DNA from: Dechloromonas sp.
GTDB taxonomy: Bacteria; Pseudomonadota; Gammaproteobacteria; Burkholderiales; Rhodocyclaceae
Reading direction: 5' to 3'
DNA length: 6,783 nt
Assembly (NCBI GenBank): GCA_013693915.1
Contig: CP059264.1
Location: 855,546-862,328, forward strand
In this document: positions 1 to 6,783 of the stretch, one piece after another
How positions within the stretch are numbered: position 1 is the first letter of the stretch
Layout: each line of letters opens with the position of its first letter
Notes under the pieces: generated by a model
Told to the model about the DNA's origin: nothing
Database searches by the model: none
What the model saw: the letters and a program-made list of their open reading frames with translations, nothing else
Position numbers and translations under genes: made by a program

Positions 1-2593
1 TGGAGGGCAGCAGCGCGGTCTGGCCATTGACCAGCAGGTCGAGATAGCCGGGGAAGGCCTTGGGCTGGGCGCACAGCGCGTCGTGCGCGGTGTCGGCCGC
101 GTACCAGACGGGAACGCCGGCGAGTCGGCCCGATTCCCAGCTTACCGTGCCGTCGCCGTCGCGGGTGGCGATGAACTCGAGGCGCTTGCGCGCCGGCGGC
201 CACCAGTCGCTGCCGGCGGTCAACTGGTAATCGATGACGGTGGCCGGCTGGCAGCCGGCGACATAGACCATGTGCTGCGGGTCGGGCGCGGCGCCGCGGA
301 GCAGCTTCCAGGTTGCTGCCGCCTCCTGCAGCCCGGCCGCTTCGGCGGTCGGCCAGGCGGCGCCGGTTTGCTGGCGCAATGTCTGCCAGCGGCCGGCATC
401 GGCGAAATCGGGGTCGTCCGGGGCGAAGGGCAGCAGTTCGAGCAGGCCGGGGTAGCGCGAGACGAGGCCGATGATCTGGTCGGTGCTCTGGGTGATGTCG
501 AGCAGCGCCAGCTTGCTCTGCGTCGGGTTGCAGCCGGTCAGCCAGCGCACGGCCTCGTAGGAGCCGAGGTTGGGTGTGCCGAGCATCAGGAAGCGGCTGC
601 CCGGCAGGCGCACGATGCGCTGCCAGAGGGCGCTGCCGGCGCCGCCGTCGGCGATCAGCGCGCGCACCACGAGGCCGCCCATCGAGTGCGCCACCAGGCG
701 CAGCGGCTGGCCGTTGCGCTCGGCCTGGGTGACCAGCGGTTCGAGGGTTTCGGCAAGGCGGGCGGCGGCCTTGCGCACCGAGTGGCGCCAGTCGTAGGGA
801 AAGATCTCGACCTGGTGGCTGCCCGCCAGGAATTCGACCAGCGGTCCGTAGAACTGGTCGACCAGCCCGGCCGGCGCGATGCCCTCGCGGCCCATCGCCA
901 GGCGCTTGAGGCCGCCGCGGAGGAGCGCCCAGTAGTCGAGCCAGACGCTGTCGCCGTCGACGCGCAACTGGCTGCCCATGGTCCCGGGCAGGACGACGGC
1001 AATCGGCCGCCGCTTGCCGTCGCCGCGGCTGCGCACGACGGCGGCCTGGCAACGGGGAGCGGCCGGGGCGGCGTCGGCAATCGGCAGGAAGCCGCCGCTG
1101 TCGCCATCGGCGCGGGCGAGGCCGGCCTGCAGCCAGCGCACGCTCTGCTCGTTGATGAAATAGCGGAAGTGATTGACCTTCGCTCCCGCGTCCTTGCGCA
1201 GTCGCGAGCCATTGACCGGACGCGGCAGGCCGCCGCTCATCGAGCCCGTGTCGACGACGAGGTCGTGCTCGTTGCGGTAGAACCAGTCGCTGGCCAGCAC
1301 CTTGAGCGTGTTCCACAAGCCGTCGCCGGCCTCGATGTCGCCGGCGATGACGCTGAGGTCGGCGTCGCTGACCAAGTCCGGCGTGCCGTTGAGCAGGCGG
1401 GTCAGGGCCGAGCCCGGCACCATCGCTTCGAGGCCCGGCAAGGTGCGCGGATCGGTGCGTTCCTTGACCACGGCGAGCAGGAAGTCGAGTCCGTCAGCGA
1501 ACAGACCGTTGCCGGTTGCCGCCGCGACCAGGTAGTCGAGCACCGACAGCCAGCGGTCGAGGCGGCCGGAAGCGAGCGTCGTGCCGCGCGCCGGGCAGGC
1601 GACGCGGACGAAACGCGTAATGCGCAGCCTCTTGGTGGCGAGCAGCGCGACCAGTTCGAGCAGGCGCTGGCGGTCGGCCTCGTAGGCATCGTCGCGTGCC
1701 TTGGCCTCGGCGTCGGCCAGCGGCGACAGGCCGAGCTGCGGCGCCAGGGTGCGGTCGGCAGCGAACAGGGTGGCCACCTGCGCTTCGCCCAGCACCTCGG
1801 CCAGCCTGGCGCAGCCGGAGAGGGCGAGCACCTCGCCGACCAGCCCGCCGCGCGAGTGGCTGACCAGATGCACTTCGGCGCCGTCGGGCAGGCGCCGGGC
1901 CAGGTCGAGGGCATTGGCGATCGGGCTTTCGCTCAACGTCCGGTGTTCGAGCGCGAAGACGCGGTCGCCGTATGCAGGCGCCAGCGCCGCGCGCACGCGG
2001 GCGCCCTCGGTGTTGGCGGTTTCCCACAATTTCCCGAAGCTGCTCCAGGTGTTCGACACGGTGCCGTGCAGGAAGACCAGCAGCGGCCCCGCGCCGGCGG
2101 CGATCGCCTCGGTGTCGGGAACGGCATGCAGCCGGAAGGCGCCGGCCAGGTCGAGGCGGTAGAAGCCGGGCGGGTGGCCGCCGAGCTGACTCTCCTCGAA
2201 GACTTTGCCCAACCTGGCGGCGGATGCTTCGACGAGATCGACGCCGAAGAAATCGAGGACGCGGATCGCCAGCCCGGCGATCCCGCGCTCGCCGCCGTCC
2301 GCCCGCCGCGGGTTGAGGCGGGAGAACTCCCAGGCGCCGGCCGCGCCGTCATCGCCCCCGCGGGCAACCGGCGGCATCCCGTATTCGCGGGTCAGGTCGT
2401 CGACCCGGCTCCACAGCACGAAGCCGTTGTCGAGTTCGACACGGACCACGGCGTCGCCGGCGACTTCGATCTCATCGGCGGCGCCGTCGCGGGCGCTGCC
2501 AGGGAGCAGGCGGTGGCTGGGCGAACGGCCGCCGACAGCCTTGCCGCGGCTTTCACTGCGGATGCCGCGAATCTTGTACAGGCGCTGGGACAT
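1..2593 (-). CDS. Tandem alpha/beta-hydrolase (DUF7379-like plus LCAT/PGAP1-like lipase), 3' end outside window
   Basis: Open from the ATG at 2593 to the left edge without a stop (at least 864 aa); the C-terminus is missing. The start is set by a GGAGGAG Shine-Dalgarno six bases upstream, 39 bases after the caspase stop. Residues 1-160 are an unrecognised, partly beta-rich leader. Domain 1 (about 165-480) has an oxyanion-type LVFLHGT (H176-G177), a nucleophile elbow SHSRGG (Ser247) and candidate acid/His partners Asp444 or Asp448 and His475; it resembles DUF7379-type hydrolases. Domain 2 (about 525-864) has PGTMGSQL (536-543) typical of the lecithin:cholesterol acyltransferase fold, elbow AHSMGG (Ser637), GDGTV (Asp814) and AHD (His837), so a full Ser-Asp-His triad is visible. 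No signal peptide or membrane helix is evident. Family knowledge suggests lipid or ester hydrolysis; the substrate is unknown. I infer that it is the effector of the operon. Further domains, for example CHAT or repeats, could follow beyond the edge. Confidence 0.88.
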   Translation of the reverse strand, partial: MSQRLYKIRGIRSESRGKAVGGRSPSHRLLPGSARDGAADEIEVAGDAVVRVELDNGFVLWSRVDDLTREYGMPPVARGGDDGAAGAWEFSRLNPRRADGGERGIAGLAIRVLDFFGVDLVEASAARLGKVFEESQLGGHPPGFYRLDLAGAFRLHAVPDTEAIAAGAGPLLVFLHGTVSNTWSSFGKLWETANTEGARVRAALAPAYGDRVFALEHRTLSESPIANALDLARRLPDGAEVHLVSHSRGGLVGEVLALSGCARLAEVLGEAQVATLFAADRTLAPQLGLSPLADAEAKARDDAYEADRQRLLELVALLATKRLRITRFVRVACPARGTTLASGRLDRWLSVLDYLVAAATGNGLFADGLDFLLAVVKERTDPRTLPGLEAMVPGSALTRLLNGTPDLVSDADLSVIAGDIEAGDGLWNTLKVLASDWFYRNEHDLVVDTGSMSGGLPRPVNGSRLRKDAGAKVNHFRYFINEQSVRWLQAGLARADGDSGGFLPIADAAPAAPRCQAAVVRSRGDGKRRPIAVVLPGTMGSQLRVDGDSVWLDYWALLRGGLKRLAMGREGIAPAGLVDQFYGPLVEFLAGSHQVEIFPYDWRHSVRKAAARLAETLEPLVTQAERNGQPLRLVAHSMGGLVVRALIADGGAGSALWQRIVRLPGSRFLMLGTPNLGSYEAVRWLTGCNPTQSKLALLDITQSTDQIIGLVSRYPGLLELLPFAPDDPDFADAGRWQTLRQQTGAAWPTAEAAGLQEAAATWKLLRGAAPDPQHMVYVAGCQPATVIDYQLTAGSDWWPPARKRLEFIATRDGDGTVSWESGRLAGVPVWYAADTAHDALCAQPKAFPGYLDLLVNGQTALLPS

Positions 2594-2632
2594 GGAAGGC
2601 TCCTCCGAAAGGTAAGGCGGGGCGAATTGCGC

Positions 2633-3466
2633 TCAGGCGAGAACCCTGCCCTTGCGCGCGGCCTCATTGCCGACGATCTGCGGCGACTGCGGGTAGCTTG
2701 CCGAAGGCAGGTACTTGCCGATGGACTTGTGCCAGTCGGCGTAGGTGGCTTCCGGCTTCAGTCCCTTCAGCGCCTTCAGCGCGTAATGGGTGAAAGCGCC
2801 GTTGTAACGGCCGGCGATGCGGGCATCGTAGCTGTAGTTGTTGGGGCCTTCCTTGCAGCCCGAGAGCAGCAGGTCGCCGAGCTTGTTCGAATAGGCGCTC
2901 AACAGCGGCGAGGTGCCGGCGGGCGCGACCATCGTCGTCGCCGGCTTGCCAGCGCGATCCTTCGGCAGCAGCCTGGCCGGGAGCCAGTTGCCCATGGGCA
3001 TGAAGCGCGGCCGCGTGTCGGCATCCTTCTCGGCCCGGGCGGCGCGGGTCACGGTGCCGGAGTGACAACTGTCGGAAATCAGCACGATGCGCACCCCGGC
3101 CTTGCGGGCGCCGAAGATGCTCCTGATTTCGTCGTCGATCAGCGCCTCGCCCCTGGCTTGCAGGTCGTAAGGGCAGAGCGCCTCGTCGAGGCCGTCGGCT
3201 TCGTCGCCGTCCTCGTCCGGCTGGTAGGTGCCGTGCCCGGAGAAGGTGATGACCAGGCTGTCGCCGTTGCCTGCCTTGCCGATCAGGTCGTTCATGGCCT
3301 GGATCATGGCGGCCTTGGTCGCCTGGTCGTCGAGCAGTTTCTCCACCGTGAAGCCGCGCCCGGCGAGCATGGCGGCCCAGTCGTTGGCGTCGTTGACGCA
3401 GCCCTGCAAGTCCATTTGCGTGCCGGGGTAGTTGTTGATGCCGATGCAGAGTGCGTTCCTGGCCAT
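2633..3466 (-). CDS. Caspase-family cysteine protease (peptidase C14, orthocaspase/metacaspase-like)
   Basis: This 277-aa single-domain protein starts with ARNALCIGINNYPG, the usual first strand and loop of bacterial caspase-like proteins. The catalytic His is in TFSGHGTY (His78) and the catalytic Cys in ISDSCHSG (Cys134), so the dyad is intact. The acidic run DEADGLDEALCPYD (88-101) and LIDDEI (109-114) match conserved metacaspase segments that shape the substrate pocket. The C-terminal region (about 185-277) has LLSAYSN, LLLSGC, NGAFTHYAL and SYPQSPQIVG, as in bacterial C14 proteins. The open frame continues 129 codons upstream of this ATG, but that extension is low-complexity and lies over the SLOG-like gene; the GAGGAG site and the family N-terminus fix the start. 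No fused sensor or transmembrane domain is present, so partners must supply recognition and output. It lies between the SLOG-like gene (74-base gap) and the hydrolase gene (39-base gap). Cytosolic location and Arg/Lys or Asp cleavage preference are inferred. Confidence 0.95.
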   Translation of the reverse strand: MARNALCIGINNYPGTQMDLQGCVNDANDWAAMLAGRGFTVEKLLDDQATKAAMIQAMNDLIGKAGNGDSLVITFSGHGTYQPDEDGDEADGLDEALCPYDLQARGEALIDDEIRSIFGARKAGVRIVLISDSCHSGTVTRAARAEKDADTRPRFMPMGNWLPARLLPKDRAGKPATTMVAPAGTSPLLSAYSNKLGDLLLSGCKEGPNNYSYDARIAGRYNGAFTHYALKALKGLKPEATYADWHKSIGKYLPSASYPQSPQIVGNEAARKGRVLA

Positions 3467-3473
3467 GACGGGT

Positions 3474-3479
3474 CTCCTC
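3474..3479 (-). promoter_or_regulatory. Shine-Dalgarno site that sets the caspase start
   Basis: On the minus strand the bases read GAGGAG, followed by a seven-base spacer and the ATG at 3466. This decides between the family-consistent start and the much longer upstream-open frame. Confidence 0.8.
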
Positions 3480-3540
3480 GTTGGTGGTGTGGCGGGCGGC
3501 GGTTCGCCGTTGCCGATCGATCTTCCGTTTCCTGTCGCGG

Positions 3541-4374
3541 TCACCAGAGTTCGCGCGTGTCCAGCCAGGTGACCTGGCAGTGGCGTCGCTTGACTTCCTC
3601 GACCATGTGGGCTGTGCCGCCAGCACCGTCGCCGCCGTTGCCATCCCACAGGCAGATGAAGCGCAGGCGGTCGCGCCCCTGCGCCAGGGCGCTGTACAGC
3701 AGCCAGCGGTTGCAGCGCTCGTAGGGGTCGCCCGGCTTGCCTGCGCGGTCGCGCGGTAGCGGGCCGAGGGCATCGGGCATGATGCGCGGCGGCAGCGACA
3801 GGCGATCGCGCAGGGCAAGGTAGCGCGCACGCCAGGTTTCGCCAGCGCAGCATGGGAGCACCGAGGTCGCGATGAATTCGGGTTCGGGCAGCGGCAGCAG
3901 CAGTTGCAGGCTGCTGCCGCGCGCCAGGCAGGCTTCGCCGAACAGGATGTCCCCGCCGGCCGCGCCCTGGGCGATGGCCAGATCGTCCGGCCCGGCGCCC
4001 AGGCTGTCGAGCGCCTCGCCGATGCGGGCAGCGGCGATGCCCTCCCTGTCGGCCGGGAAACGCGGCAGCGGGCGATCCGGGGTGTCGATCCTGTGGCCGG
4101 AGAAGAGGAAGACCTTCCCCGGCGACTCGCGGGGATCCCGCTGACGCAGCATCTCGTCCGCCAGCGCCCGGGCCGAGGCGCGCAAGGCGGCCGACGGCGC
4201 CTCGTCGGCGAGCACATCGATGTCCTCCGGGTGACCGGACTTGCGGGCGATATCGATGCGTGCCGCCCAGCCTTCGCCGGCGCTGCGGGCAAGAACGCCA
4301 TTGCCGCCGCTGGCCGCGCCGGGTCCGTCCGGATTGCTGCCGATTGGCGTGGCGACTGGAACGTTCAGGCTCAT
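3541..4374 (-). CDS. SLOG-like Rossmann-fold protein, putative sensor or nucleotide-handling partner of the caspase
   Basis: This 277-aa protein is first in the apparent operon. Residues 1-80 are a Gly/Ala-rich then helical leader. The core begins at KVFLFSGHRID (87-97). It continues with a helix, then DLAIAQGAAGGDILFGEACLARG (131-153) and LQLLLPLPEPEF (156-167). The GAAGGD-helix arrangement resembles the GGARGAD loop of SLOG/DprA-like nucleotide-binding proteins. The C-terminal half has CNRWLLYSAL (221-230) and a strand-loop LRFICLWDGNGGDGAGGT (237-254) that looks like a second phosphate- or nucleotide-binding Gly loop, then a terminal strand. The ATG has an AGAGAGG-like Shine-Dalgarno just upstream, so I accept this start. 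Family knowledge: SLOG proteins bind or process nucleotide-like ligands and often sit in conflict operons. Inference: it senses or makes a signal controlling the neighbouring protease. No enzymatic activity can be assigned, and assignment to SLOG rests on motif resemblance only. Confidence 0.82.
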   Translation of the reverse strand: MSLNVPVATPIGSNPDGPGAASGGNGVLARSAGEGWAARIDIARKSGHPEDIDVLADEAPSAALRASARALADEMLRQRDPRESPGKVFLFSGHRIDTPDRPLPRFPADREGIAAARIGEALDSLGAGPDDLAIAQGAAGGDILFGEACLARGSSLQLLLPLPEPEFIATSVLPCCAGETWRARYLALRDRLSLPPRIMPDALGPLPRDRAGKPGDPYERCNRWLLYSALAQGRDRLRFICLWDGNGGDGAGGTAHMVEEVKRRHCQVTWLDTRELW

Positions 4375-4493
4375 GCGGGCCTCTCTGTTGGCGTCCCGGT
4401 GATCAGGGAGAAGCCGGGAATGCTTGATTCATGCCGGCTGCCGGCCGGGGCGCTCCGTTTTCCACGGCTGGCGCCCGTGCAAAGTCATAAGCT

Positions 4494-4522
4494 ATCTTAG
4501 TTCGCCGGCCGGCGGCTGCCAA
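4494..4522 (-). promoter_or_regulatory. Candidate sigma-70-type promoter for the SLOG-caspase-hydrolase operon
   Basis: The minus strand reads TTGGCA (4522-4517, 5/6 match to the -35 consensus), exactly 17 bases of spacer, then TAAGAT (4499-4494, 4/6 match to the -10 consensus). Transcription would begin near 4487 and give a leader of about 110 bases before the SLOG-like ATG. It is the best promoter-like pair I found in the spacer. The match is by eye only. Confidence 0.5.
4503..4514. repeat. 12-base perfect palindrome between the -35 and -10 elements (possible operator)
   Basis: CGCCGGCCGGCG is its own reverse complement and lies wholly inside the 17-base promoter spacer. A repressor bound here would block polymerase. 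In GC-rich DNA such palindromes also arise by chance, so operator function is only a suggestion. Confidence 0.35.
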
Positions 4523-4594
4523 GGACTTTCCTGATCCGCCGCCTGCGCTCGCGGCGCTCTGGGTACTGGAGACGAGGAACACCGCTTGCCCCAC

Positions 4595-4612
4595 CCGGTC
4601 GCGGTCGACCGG
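4595..4612. repeat. Short hairpin, with a distant inverted copy of its core
   Basis: CCGGTC and GACCGG form a 6-bp stem around a six-base loop; the overlapping CGGTCGACCG is a perfect 10-base palindrome. The 10-mer GCGGTCGACC (4601-4610) recurs as its exact reverse complement at 4714-4723, about 100 bases away. Function unknown; it could be a protein-binding pair or chance. Confidence 0.35.
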
Positions 4613-4752
4613 AGAAAATGGGCTGTTTTCAAGATCGGGCTCGGTTCAAACAGGGGAACAGGCGACGGTTTGCGGGAATGGAAAGAAACAGTTCGTTTTG
4701 GCCCCTTTCCCGGGGTCGACCGCAACAGGGTGGCGGAAGGCTGCTGGCTCTA

Positions 4753-4797
4753 TTGATCCGGCCGCCTGAAACTTCAAACTTCAGCTGGACGGATCAA
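4753..4797. repeat. Long imperfect inverted repeat (hairpin) downstream of the helicase gene
   Basis: TTGATCCG (4753-4760) pairs perfectly with CGGATCAA (4790-4797). After a 1x1 mismatch, CCG pairs with TGG (two GC pairs and one G-T). After another mismatch, CTGAA (4766-4770) pairs with TTCAG (4780-4784), leaving a nine-base loop. It starts 53 bases past the helicase stop. For the minus-strand transcript the T run (TTTTTT) comes before the stem, not after it, so it is not a classic intrinsic terminator. It could protect the 3' end of the message, be a structured RNA, or mark an old recombination site. Confidence 0.5.
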
Positions 4798-4849
4798 AAA
4801 AGCGTATGCCACGTTTGCTTCTCAGTCAGGAGCAGCCGTTTAGCCGAGT

Positions 4850-6783
4850 TCATTCGGCCAACTTGGCAAATAGATCATCCAGTTGCGGGTTGCCGGTGAT
4901 CAGCAACAACTGCTTGATCGTTGCCGTTCGGTTAATCTCGAGCCGTCCGTAATGCTCGCCACCGGCCGGGGATGCCTGCTTGCGGATCAACTGGATGCGC
5001 CCGAACAGCGCGCCGTGGTGTTCGGCGAATCGCGCGAGACCGATAGCCTTCTCGAAGTTGTCGCCCAAGGACGGATCGTGTGGTTCGAGAATATCCACTG
5101 TTACGCCAGCGCCGACTTTGCGCACGATCACCAGATCGGGGAACATCGGCCGGATGTCACCGCCCGTCTCGTAGGGAATTTCCAGCGACCACGGTTTCTT
5201 CGGAAGATTGCGCAGCCAGCCAACCACTTCCGGCTTCGCCAACTCTTCCTTCAATACGCCCGCTTCCCACGTGCCTAGCCCGGCACGGAATTGCCCGTCG
5301 CTCTCCACATAGAGATGGCGATCCCACTGCGGATCGGTAGGAAAACGCTTGAAGTCGATGGATTCCGGCAGATGCCACGGCACCTCGGCCGGCTTGGCCG
5401 TGGCCAGCCGCAACTTCTCGTAGTGGCTTCGCCGTTGTTCCTTGAGCTTGGCGATAGCCTTCTTGTGCGTATCGTAGAGCGTGTCGAAGGCCTTCTCGGC
5501 CGCCGATTCCATCGCCGACATGGCGACATGGTTGCGGGCGAGAACGATTACCTCGACCTTCACATTGAGCGCATCGCGGTCCGCATTCGTCTGCCAATAG
5601 GTCATATGCAGCCCGTGGCTCAACGCCCGGCCGGCTTCCTCGAACAATCGGTCGATGTCCACGTCCGAGGCATCGATGTGATAGTCGGCCTCCGGTTCGG
5701 CCACGCCCGTGCCGTTCTTCACCGCCAGGGTCTTCAGCCCGACGCGGGTAATGGCCTGCGCCGCCGCATCGTATTGGCCCGCTGACTTCATGGCCGCAAT
5801 CTGGGCGGCCATCCACTCGACGATCTGGCGCTTGGCACCGTCCCAGGCCTCGTCGTCGATCTCGTCCATCGTCAGATTGCGCGAAATCGCCATGAAGCGC
5901 CGCAAGTGGCTCTGCGCCCGAGCGGCATTGACGCGGTAGGTCATCAACTCGCCCAGCGCCGCGAAGACATCCTCCATCCCGGTACGGCGACCGAGCACCA
6001 CCAGATGGCGGCTGGAACCGGTCTCCGACGGCGGCACATCCTCGACGTTATGCAGCGACTCCACCACGCTGGTCACCGCCTGCGTGTCGAAGTAGGGCAG
6101 GAACAGATGCACATCGTTCAGCGCTGCGTCGCGTTCGATGCGCCGTGCCAGCGGCGTGCGCACCATCCGACCGAGCAGTTGCGCGATGTAGGTGTGATCC
6201 TCGGCGCGGCGGAACGACATCATCACTTCGGCCCGTGGACAATCCCAGCCGGTGGAGAGAGATGTCTTGAAGAACACCACGCCGATGTTCTTGTCGGCAT
6301 CGATGCGCGAGGCATCGACCTTGCGCACCTTGCGCCCGCCCACATCCATGTCGCCAGTGTCGTGCAGGGCGTGGGCCACCTCGCCTTCGTTGAGGCGGCG
6401 ACCGATGGCGCTCTCGATGACATTCAGGGCATCGGTCAAGCTGGTCCTGGTCACCGCATTCGCCGTGGCATTATCGACCTGCACCACCAGCACGGGCCAG
6501 ATCGGCTGCTCGGCCTCGATCTTGCAGTAGCTGGCCCAGGCCGTCGTCATCTGCGCCCAGCGACGCGCGGCTTCTTCGAGCAACGCCATCTCGGCAGTCG
6601 TGGCCGATTCGGGGTGATGGATCAGGATGCGATCTTTCAGCAGGCCGGACAGCCGTACCTCGTCGGGTGGAATGGCGACCTTGTGCACGGTGTGCGGCGC
6701 GTGCTCCAGCAAATCCATGAAACGCCTGGGCGTGGCCGACACTCCGATGACCAGCGGCATCTTGATCAAACCTACCTCGGGAA
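4850..6783 (-). CDS. Type III restriction (Res)-like DEAD/DEAH helicase with C-terminal nuclease-like segment, 5' end outside window
   Basis: The frame is open from the right edge to the TGA at 4852-4850. A TTG at 6769 could be read as a start, but the frame continues upstream (PEVGLIKMPLVIGVSATP) and the protein begins inside helicase domain 1, so it is N-terminally cut by the window; Walker A and DEAD/DEAH motifs must lie outside. Numbering from that TTG codon: motif III SAT (11-13), motif V-like TSLSTGWDCPRA (169-180), motif VI QLLGRMVRTP (197-206). A long helical region follows (about 270-460, including a charged stretch near 435-455). The C-terminus (about 525-600) has LEIPY, MFPDLVIV (Asp545) and VDILEPHD (558-565), laid out like a PD-(D/E)xK nuclease core but with E-P-H where E-x-K is expected. 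Family knowledge: ATP-driven DNA translocation coupled to cleavage. A partner methyltransferase, if any, is not in the window. Its GC is visibly lower than that of the left operon. Confidence 0.9.
   Translation of the reverse strand, partial: PEVGLIKMPLVIGVSATPRRFMDLLEHAPHTVHKVAIPPDEVRLSGLLKDRILIHHPESATTAEMALLEEAARRWAQMTTAWASYCKIEAEQPIWPVLVVQVDNATANAVTRTSLTDALNVIESAIGRRLNEGEVAHALHDTGDMDVGGRKVRKVDASRIDADKNIGVVFFKTSLSTGWDCPRAEVMMSFRRAEDHTYIAQLLGRMVRTPLARRIERDAALNDVHLFLPYFDTQAVTSVVESLHNVEDVPPSETGSSRHLVVLGRRTGMEDVFAALGELMTYRVNAARAQSHLRRFMAISRNLTMDEIDDEAWDGAKRQIVEWMAAQIAAMKSAGQYDAAAQAITRVGLKTLAVKNGTGVAEPEADYHIDASDVDIDRLFEEAGRALSHGLHMTYWQTNADRDALNVKVEVIVLARNHVAMSAMESAAEKAFDTLYDTHKKAIAKLKEQRRSHYEKLRLATAKPAEVPWHLPESIDFKRFPTDPQWDRHLYVESDGQFRAGLGTWEAGVLKEELAKPEVVGWLRNLPKKPWSLEIPYETGGDIRPMFPDLVIVRKVGAGVTVDILEPHDPSLGDNFEKAIGLARFAEHHGALFGRIQLIRKQASPAGGEHYGRLEINRTATIKQLLLITGNPQLDDLFAKLAE

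Follow-up and report, generated by a model that had tools for sequence, protein, structure and literature searches.

A protease-hydrolase cluster in Dechloromonas

The window analysed here is a stretch of 6,783 bases from Dechloromonas sp. (G000:C1:855546-862328, in a genome of 3.96 Mb on a single contig). Its minus strand carries, in this order, genes for a protein of predicted SLOG fold (gene 1), a metacaspase-type protease (gene 2) and a giant multidomain protein (gene 3), after which comes a fourth gene on the same strand (Table 1). The three genes, the caspase dyad, the hydrolase serines, the ribosome sites and the gaps of 74 bases between genes 1 and 2 and 39 bases between genes 2 and 3, all described in a first-pass annotation of this DNA, were confirmed. 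Gene 3 had been taken for a double-hydrolase gene: the hydrolases stand, but the gene is incomplete there, the window edge cutting a frame that runs on to L005:12149 and encodes 1,814 residues. This giant is the centre of the present analysis, with a caspase that is strongly linked to it across genomes and with two conserved linker arginines that represent candidate cleavage sites.

Domain make-up of the three proteins

The giant combines two alpha/beta-hydrolases, a region predicted to fold as a macro domain, a CHAT protease and TPR-S repeats. Conservation along the chain was counted over 60 rows, the own sequence included, with giants truncated at contig ends and the split giant of L062 left out. 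Each hydrolase has a conserved triad (S247-D444-H475 and S637-D814-H837); Pfam matches are to DUF7379 (1.7e-32) and LCAT (7.5e-7), and profile matches to 4r1d (1.3e-6), Group XV PLA2 (1.1e-5) and LCAT (2.8e-4), with the second hydrolase resembling LCAT and phospholipases. Judged by sequence, the N-terminal half of the giant belongs to the lipase/phospholipase-like alpha/beta-hydrolases, with Ser, Asp and His present and a putative activity on lipids, and the conserved triads bear out the lipase-like hydrolases proposed earlier. The catalytic serines are retained in most giants, including most of those without a caspase nearby (S247 in 7 of 8, S637 in all seven that reach this position). One literature search for DUF7379 by name retrieved no paper.

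Further along the chain, the CHAT domain (PF12770, 9.1e-33) has H1338, C1385 and C1386 in 60/60 giants, placing the protein in the CHAT protease family with His and Cys present. Because the giant of L144 has Ala at 1385 and Cys at 1386, C1386 is the likelier nucleophile. Among the folds nearest to this domain are those of the arginine-specific proteases separase and gingipain R. The middle of the giant was modelled on the relative L007, which is 92% identical over this part, and is predicted to adopt a macro-domain fold with putative ADP-ribose binding; the model resembles M17 aminopeptidase N-domains just as closely, and the Pfam scan of this part returned a sub-threshold M17_N match only. 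The giant of L083 (L083:10832-13909) lacks the hydrolases, still has macro, CHAT and TPR-S parts, and adjoins an intact caspase. Isolated N bases occur in the genome at single positions of L005 and L006, none of them inside the window, and leave an X in the giant's translation.

Gene 2 matches Peptidase_C14 in Pfam (PF00656, 4.8e-26), and its nearest solved chains are GSU0716 (2e-32) and Metacaspase-1 (1.1e-27). Relatives were collected as 80 loci kept of 163 confirmed, giving a family of 81 with the own locus, in which Cys134 is present in 81/81 and His78 in 79/81. The two exceptions, L058 and L060, come from one metagenome-assembled genome and are both among the loci without a giant, the contig of L058 ending 732 bases on. 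These features assign gene 2, at the sequence level, to peptidase C14 of metacaspase type with its His-Cys dyad present, and the intact dyad noted in the first-pass annotation is thereby upheld by both the Pfam match and conservation. At least 73 of the 81 caspases carry [TNS]R/[AGS] (the slash following the arginine in question) seven residues past the catalytic Cys, a possible activation site. The nearest relatives of the caspase are Azonexus and Dechloromonas records; none was found on plasmids at 1e-30, and one match of 36% was found in an uncultured phage at 1e-20. The own genome holds a second caspase homologue away from the cluster (G000:C1:966594-967430, 36% identical, in a 452-residue open frame), and a Synechococcus locus has a second, longer caspase gene that lies downstream of a gene for a TPR-S protein and shares its strand (L054:18368-20302).

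For gene 1, no Pfam model matched and a profile search against solved structures gave weak, unrelated matches only. The predicted model, however, has a SLOG-type Rossmannoid fold, with YpsA, DprA, ShosA, LOG, TRPM and ThsA leading or figuring in the fold list. In its family, GGT at 252-254 is invariant and E260 is 90%-conserved, which we take to resemble the LOG motif PGGxGTxxE. The predicted fold would place gene 1 in the SLOG superfamily, as had been proposed from the sequence, with nucleotide binding or hydrolysis as a putative function. In a TPR-S-SLOG protein of another locus (L007:7957-9936), residues 25-113 match positions 260-350 of the PADLOC TIR effector model (2.2e-7), and this N-terminal segment may be a shared adaptor.

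In the family sample the caspase occurs only with the giant, not the reverse

Does the caspase need the giant, or the giant the caspase? A giant lies downstream of the caspase on the same strand in 73/80 loci (hydrolase-less in L083, and in some cut by contig ends), at close range in all but L067 and L077, where the spacing is 1.5 and 4 kb. Seven loci have no giant: three (L023, L058, L074) end within 732 bases, and four (L044, L060, L081, L085) truly lack one in the stretch. Among 60 relatives, all 13 caspase carriers have the giant adjoining, and one more genome has the giant alone. In a family sample of 199 genomes, with giant and caspase both called at E 1e-60, the giant occurs in 51 and the caspase in 32, and every one of the 32 caspase genomes also carries the giant (hypergeometric 5e-24, uncorrected for phylogeny); on this ground we rejected the idea that the two are chance neighbours. 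They adjoin in 24 of the 32. For the other eight, the caspase of G937 sits about 300 kb off on the same contig, and in seven draft assemblies it lies on a different contig from the giant, so that a contig break could hide an adjacency.

The converse does not hold, as 19 of the 51 family genomes with a giant gave no match to the gene 2 caspase. Outside the family, 12 giants were examined and four of them have the caspase nearby (L140, L142, L146, L154; two others, L144 and L148, sit at contig ends), whereas none of the three plasmid giants fetched, out of seven plasmid copies, has it nearby. These counts show a strong link in which carriage of the caspase goes with carriage of the giant. The giant itself is patchy (own genome included, 14/60 relatives, 51/199 genomes of the family, 11/369 of the class and 4/398 of the phylum). 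A comparison with empty sites gave nothing for the window's flanks, the flank proteins being present in 3/37 and 2/37 genomes, the own included, and together in no other.

The SLOG gene is a looser partner of both. It occurs in the fetched stretch of 29/80 caspase loci, directly upstream of the caspase in 15/80, and adjoins the caspase in 8 of the 13 carriers among the 60 relatives. In the family sample it is present in 31 genomes, 23 of them with the giant (7.9 expected, p 5e-10, uncorrected), within 6 kb of the giant in 7 and directly beside the caspase in only 3 of the 199. Two named strains show both states: Dechloromonas agitata is5 has caspase and giant but gave no SLOG hit, and Dechloromonas sp. 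H13 has genes of all three kinds. The three-gene grouping of the first-pass annotation holds up for the caspase and giant, with the SLOG gene loosely attached.

Candidate cleavage arginines in the giant's linkers

Two arginines stand out in the linkers of the giant (59 rows, the hydrolase-less L083 left out). Arg523, between the hydrolases, is present in 58/59 against a median linker column of 20.5/59, and Arg871, between the second hydrolase and the macro part, likewise in 58/59 against 22.5/59. The latter linker is probably disordered, because it is of low confidence in the L007 model. The residue that follows is one of G, A, S, D, E or T in 58/58 at either site, versus 38% after all arginines of the giants. 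Among the 59, all of which bear hydrolases, only L066 lacks Arg871, and it carries S247C and S637G as well. On the strength of this conservation, we infer that R523 and R871 are candidate cleavage sites.

A motif test then read an arginine followed by GASDET in an 18-residue, alignment-based window per linker over 104 giants, leaving out L144 and L148 (contig ends); G942, one of the 19 caspase-less family genomes, is absent from the set. The motif was present in linkers 1 and 2 of, respectively, 59/59 and 58/59 giants selected through their caspase and 8/8 and 7/8 giants with a caspase elsewhere; the 10 further giants that adjoin a caspase all had it in both linkers. Giants of caspase-less family genomes had it in 18/18 and 17/18 and other giants without a caspase nearby in 9/9 and 8/9, or 27/27 and 25/27 for all caspase-less giants pooled, and linker 1 kept it in 104/104. 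Random 18-residue stretches of giants carry it in 46%, and the rows are related sequences whose counts are non-independent. When 11 giants were added and the set realigned, the R523 and R871 columns fell to 30/71 each as gaps shifted the columns; read on fixed columns, seven of the 11 have R523 and seven have R871. The linker motif tracks the in-cis CHAT domain, which is always present, rather than the caspase.

Locus features and neighbouring genes

The positions of the features are collected in Table 1. In 2400-4900, promoter-like matches numbered one, versus a mean of 0.2 in shuffles, and no terminator-like site was found. The fourth gene starts 95 bases after the giant and encodes a protein with eight hydrophobic segments, which recurs in 25/81 loci. 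It had no Pfam or PADLOC match and only weak, unrelated profile matches to solved structures; its soluble C-terminal part bears a weak likeness to TIR (hhalign P 0.0032, probability only 9.9). In L011 the giant and the membrane protein seemed to be fused, but this reading was set aside because the sequence there is given as 10 X. The cluster is directly preceded, on the same strand, by genes for a type III restriction subunit, ResIII (839 residues), and a DNA methylase (739 residues).

Table 1. Features of the window and its flanks (window positions unless prefixed)
Feature	Position	Strand	Remarks
Gene 1, predicted SLOG fold, 277 residues	3541..4374	-	helical N-terminal part residues 25-77; SLOG domain residues 85-277
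Gene 2, metacaspase-type protease, 277 residues	2633..3466	-	His78 (3235-3233), Cys134 (3067-3065) in DSCHSG
Gene 3 (giant), N-terminal 864 of 1814 residues	1..2593	-	tandem alpha/beta-hydrolases
Arg523 codon, inferred cleavage-site candidate, inter-hydrolase linker	1025..1027	-	conservation
Shine-Dalgarno-like GGAGGAG, gene 3	2600..2606	-	
Shine-Dalgarno-like GAGGAG, gene 2	3474..3479	-	
Shine-Dalgarno-like AGAGAGG, gene 1	4380..4386	-	
Promoter-like site 5' of gene 1	4494..4522	-	consensus match only
525-residue likely membrane protein	L005:10476-12053	same strand as cluster	
ResIII and DNA methylase genes	4850-6783 and L006:1396-6131	same strand	end at window 4850

Around other copies, an M15-type peptidase is encoded in 22/81 loci (not in the window's own cluster), and OmpA and glycine-zipper genes lie near some. 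A neighbour gene cluster of seven members has one scanned member, a patatin phospholipase that matches a PADLOC phospholipase effector at 1.8e-42. TIR domains, found with a profile built from eight of the same proteins that Pfam had called TIR, occur anywhere in the fetched stretch of 10/80 caspase loci and 4/11 giant-selected loci. An Azotobacter plasmid copy adjoins a type I restriction cluster, and a Paracoccus plasmid copy lies amid transport and sugar genes. As raw occurrences, the TIR and patatin genes around some copies, and the restriction genes next to two of them, agree with the defence-type company expected from the first-pass annotation. In one unusual pairing, a TIR-PASTA protein is encoded directly upstream of the caspase (L074:7839-9731).

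A possible self-cleaving suicide switch

What might such a cluster do? The reading we favour, tentatively and at somewhat less than even confidence, is that of a suicide switch: CHAT would cleave the giant itself behind conserved arginines, and the hydrolases released in this way would attack membrane lipids. Infection or stress would alter a signal, either a nucleotide or a derivative of NAD, which the SLOG protein would make or bind or which would stem from the TIR proteins near some other copies. The giant would sense this signal or a partner through its macro-fold and TPR-S regions. CHAT would then cut the linkers at R871 and R523 and would also activate the metacaspase, perhaps at the site seven residues past its catalytic Cys, amplifying the cascade. 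The freed hydrolases would degrade lipids, the cell would die or stop growing, and phage would be limited; defence against phage is perhaps the purpose of the cluster. By analogy with SAVED-CHAT, we favour the metacaspase as a dependent second protease of the giant.

Several observations weigh against this proposal. Other invariant arginines followed by a small residue lie in domain cores (R248, R644, R1165). Next to the two linker arginines with their small neighbours, R103-G104 is a third pair of that sort, and certain Trp and Phe columns exceed both linker arginines in isolation. L054 and L079 carry S637G yet keep R871. The giant has no PADLOC match, and several loci have ordinary metabolic genes as neighbours.

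Who, then, would cut the linkers? The first-pass annotation had the caspase release the lipase, and the metacaspase, rather than CHAT, could indeed act on the giant in a gasdermin-like manner. Metacaspases prefer Arg or Lys, and the window's site VRSR/G is similar to VRPR, a substrate of plant metacaspase 9; gene 2 is of metacaspase type and was not found without the giant among the 199 family genomes. However, the giant has a CHAT protease of its own, with its dyad in every giant counted, and the 19 giant genomes without such a caspase at the E 1e-60 threshold, where a more distant protease is possible, speak against a caspase requirement. Since caspase-less giants keep the arginine motif, the in-cis CHAT domain appears the likelier cutter of the linkers; the same retention lowered the caspase as required cutter, which had been our first reading of the sites, and we consider cutting by the metacaspase unlikely.

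Rather improbable, too, is a role in regulated proteolysis and lipid turnover during envelope stress or development instead of defence: the hydrophobic segments of the fourth gene's product and the M15-type peptidase, OmpA and glycine-zipper genes would fit it, whereas the patchiness of the giant and the recurrence of TIR, patatin and SLOG genes nearby do not. In another alternative the caspase could be the terminal effector, activated by CHAT in the way that SAVED-CHAT activates its caspase partner, and the hydrolases would do another job, for instance in producing or clearing a lipid signal, but the retention of the hydrolase serines in most giants, including most without a caspase nearby, leaves this with little probability.

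A bolder form of the suicide switch, which we regard as doubtful, would make the cluster a new class of bacterial death system, with sensor, protease and lipid-degrading executioner in one self-cleaving chain. In this form, SLOG or TIR partners would supply an ADP-ribose-type signal for the macro domain to read, and the metacaspase would exist only where that chain does. If the suicide switch is true, it offers a possible function for DUF7379-CHAT proteins. Two exact candidate sites (R523, R871), together with a natural set of giants with and without the caspase, would allow a direct test of which protease cuts which protein in caspase/CHAT cascades.

Comparison with known systems

The cluster may be viewed as a variant of CHAT/caspase death systems. 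SAVED-CHAT works in a proteolytic cascade, as stated in PMC11229360. It has a caspase partner in type III-B CRISPR; this giant differs in its predicted macro fold, its TPR-S repeats and its two in-chain lipase-like hydrolases. Compared to Craspase, the TPR-CHAT (Csx29) system of type III-E CRISPR, the giant instead has hydrolases fused in cis. Neither SAVED nor gRAMP/Cas7-11 nor Csx30 was found in the four cluster genes or the scanned flanking genes, CRISPR arrays not having been searched for. Borvo is described as a CHAT-containing defence system in PMC10952713, and the CHAT protease domain is common to both, with the giant unmatched by PADLOC. In the MoxR-vWA/VMAP ternary systems, the caspase domain always neighbours an alpha/beta-hydrolase gene and joint action has been suggested, according to eLife 52696, whereas here the hydrolases are in tandem and fused to macro-CHAT-TPR-S. 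MoxR, vWA and VMAP were absent from the cluster and from the Pfam-scanned neighbours, which are a part of the flanking genes.

A chain that joins two hydrolases to a macro fold, CHAT and TPR-S and is accompanied by a dependent metacaspase was not found in the open-licence papers searched. A further kind for comparison is the bacterial gasdermin-protease operon, in which a protease releases a membrane killer. No gasdermin matched in Pfam and PADLOC scans of the cluster, whose libraries possibly lack a bacterial gasdermin model. The release principle would be alike, but the killer here would be a lipid-acting enzyme, not a pore former. If true, this describes a bacterial death pathway linked to a caspase, in which proteolysis sets free a lipase as the executioner. 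It would parallel caspase-gasdermin killing, with an enzyme replacing the pore.

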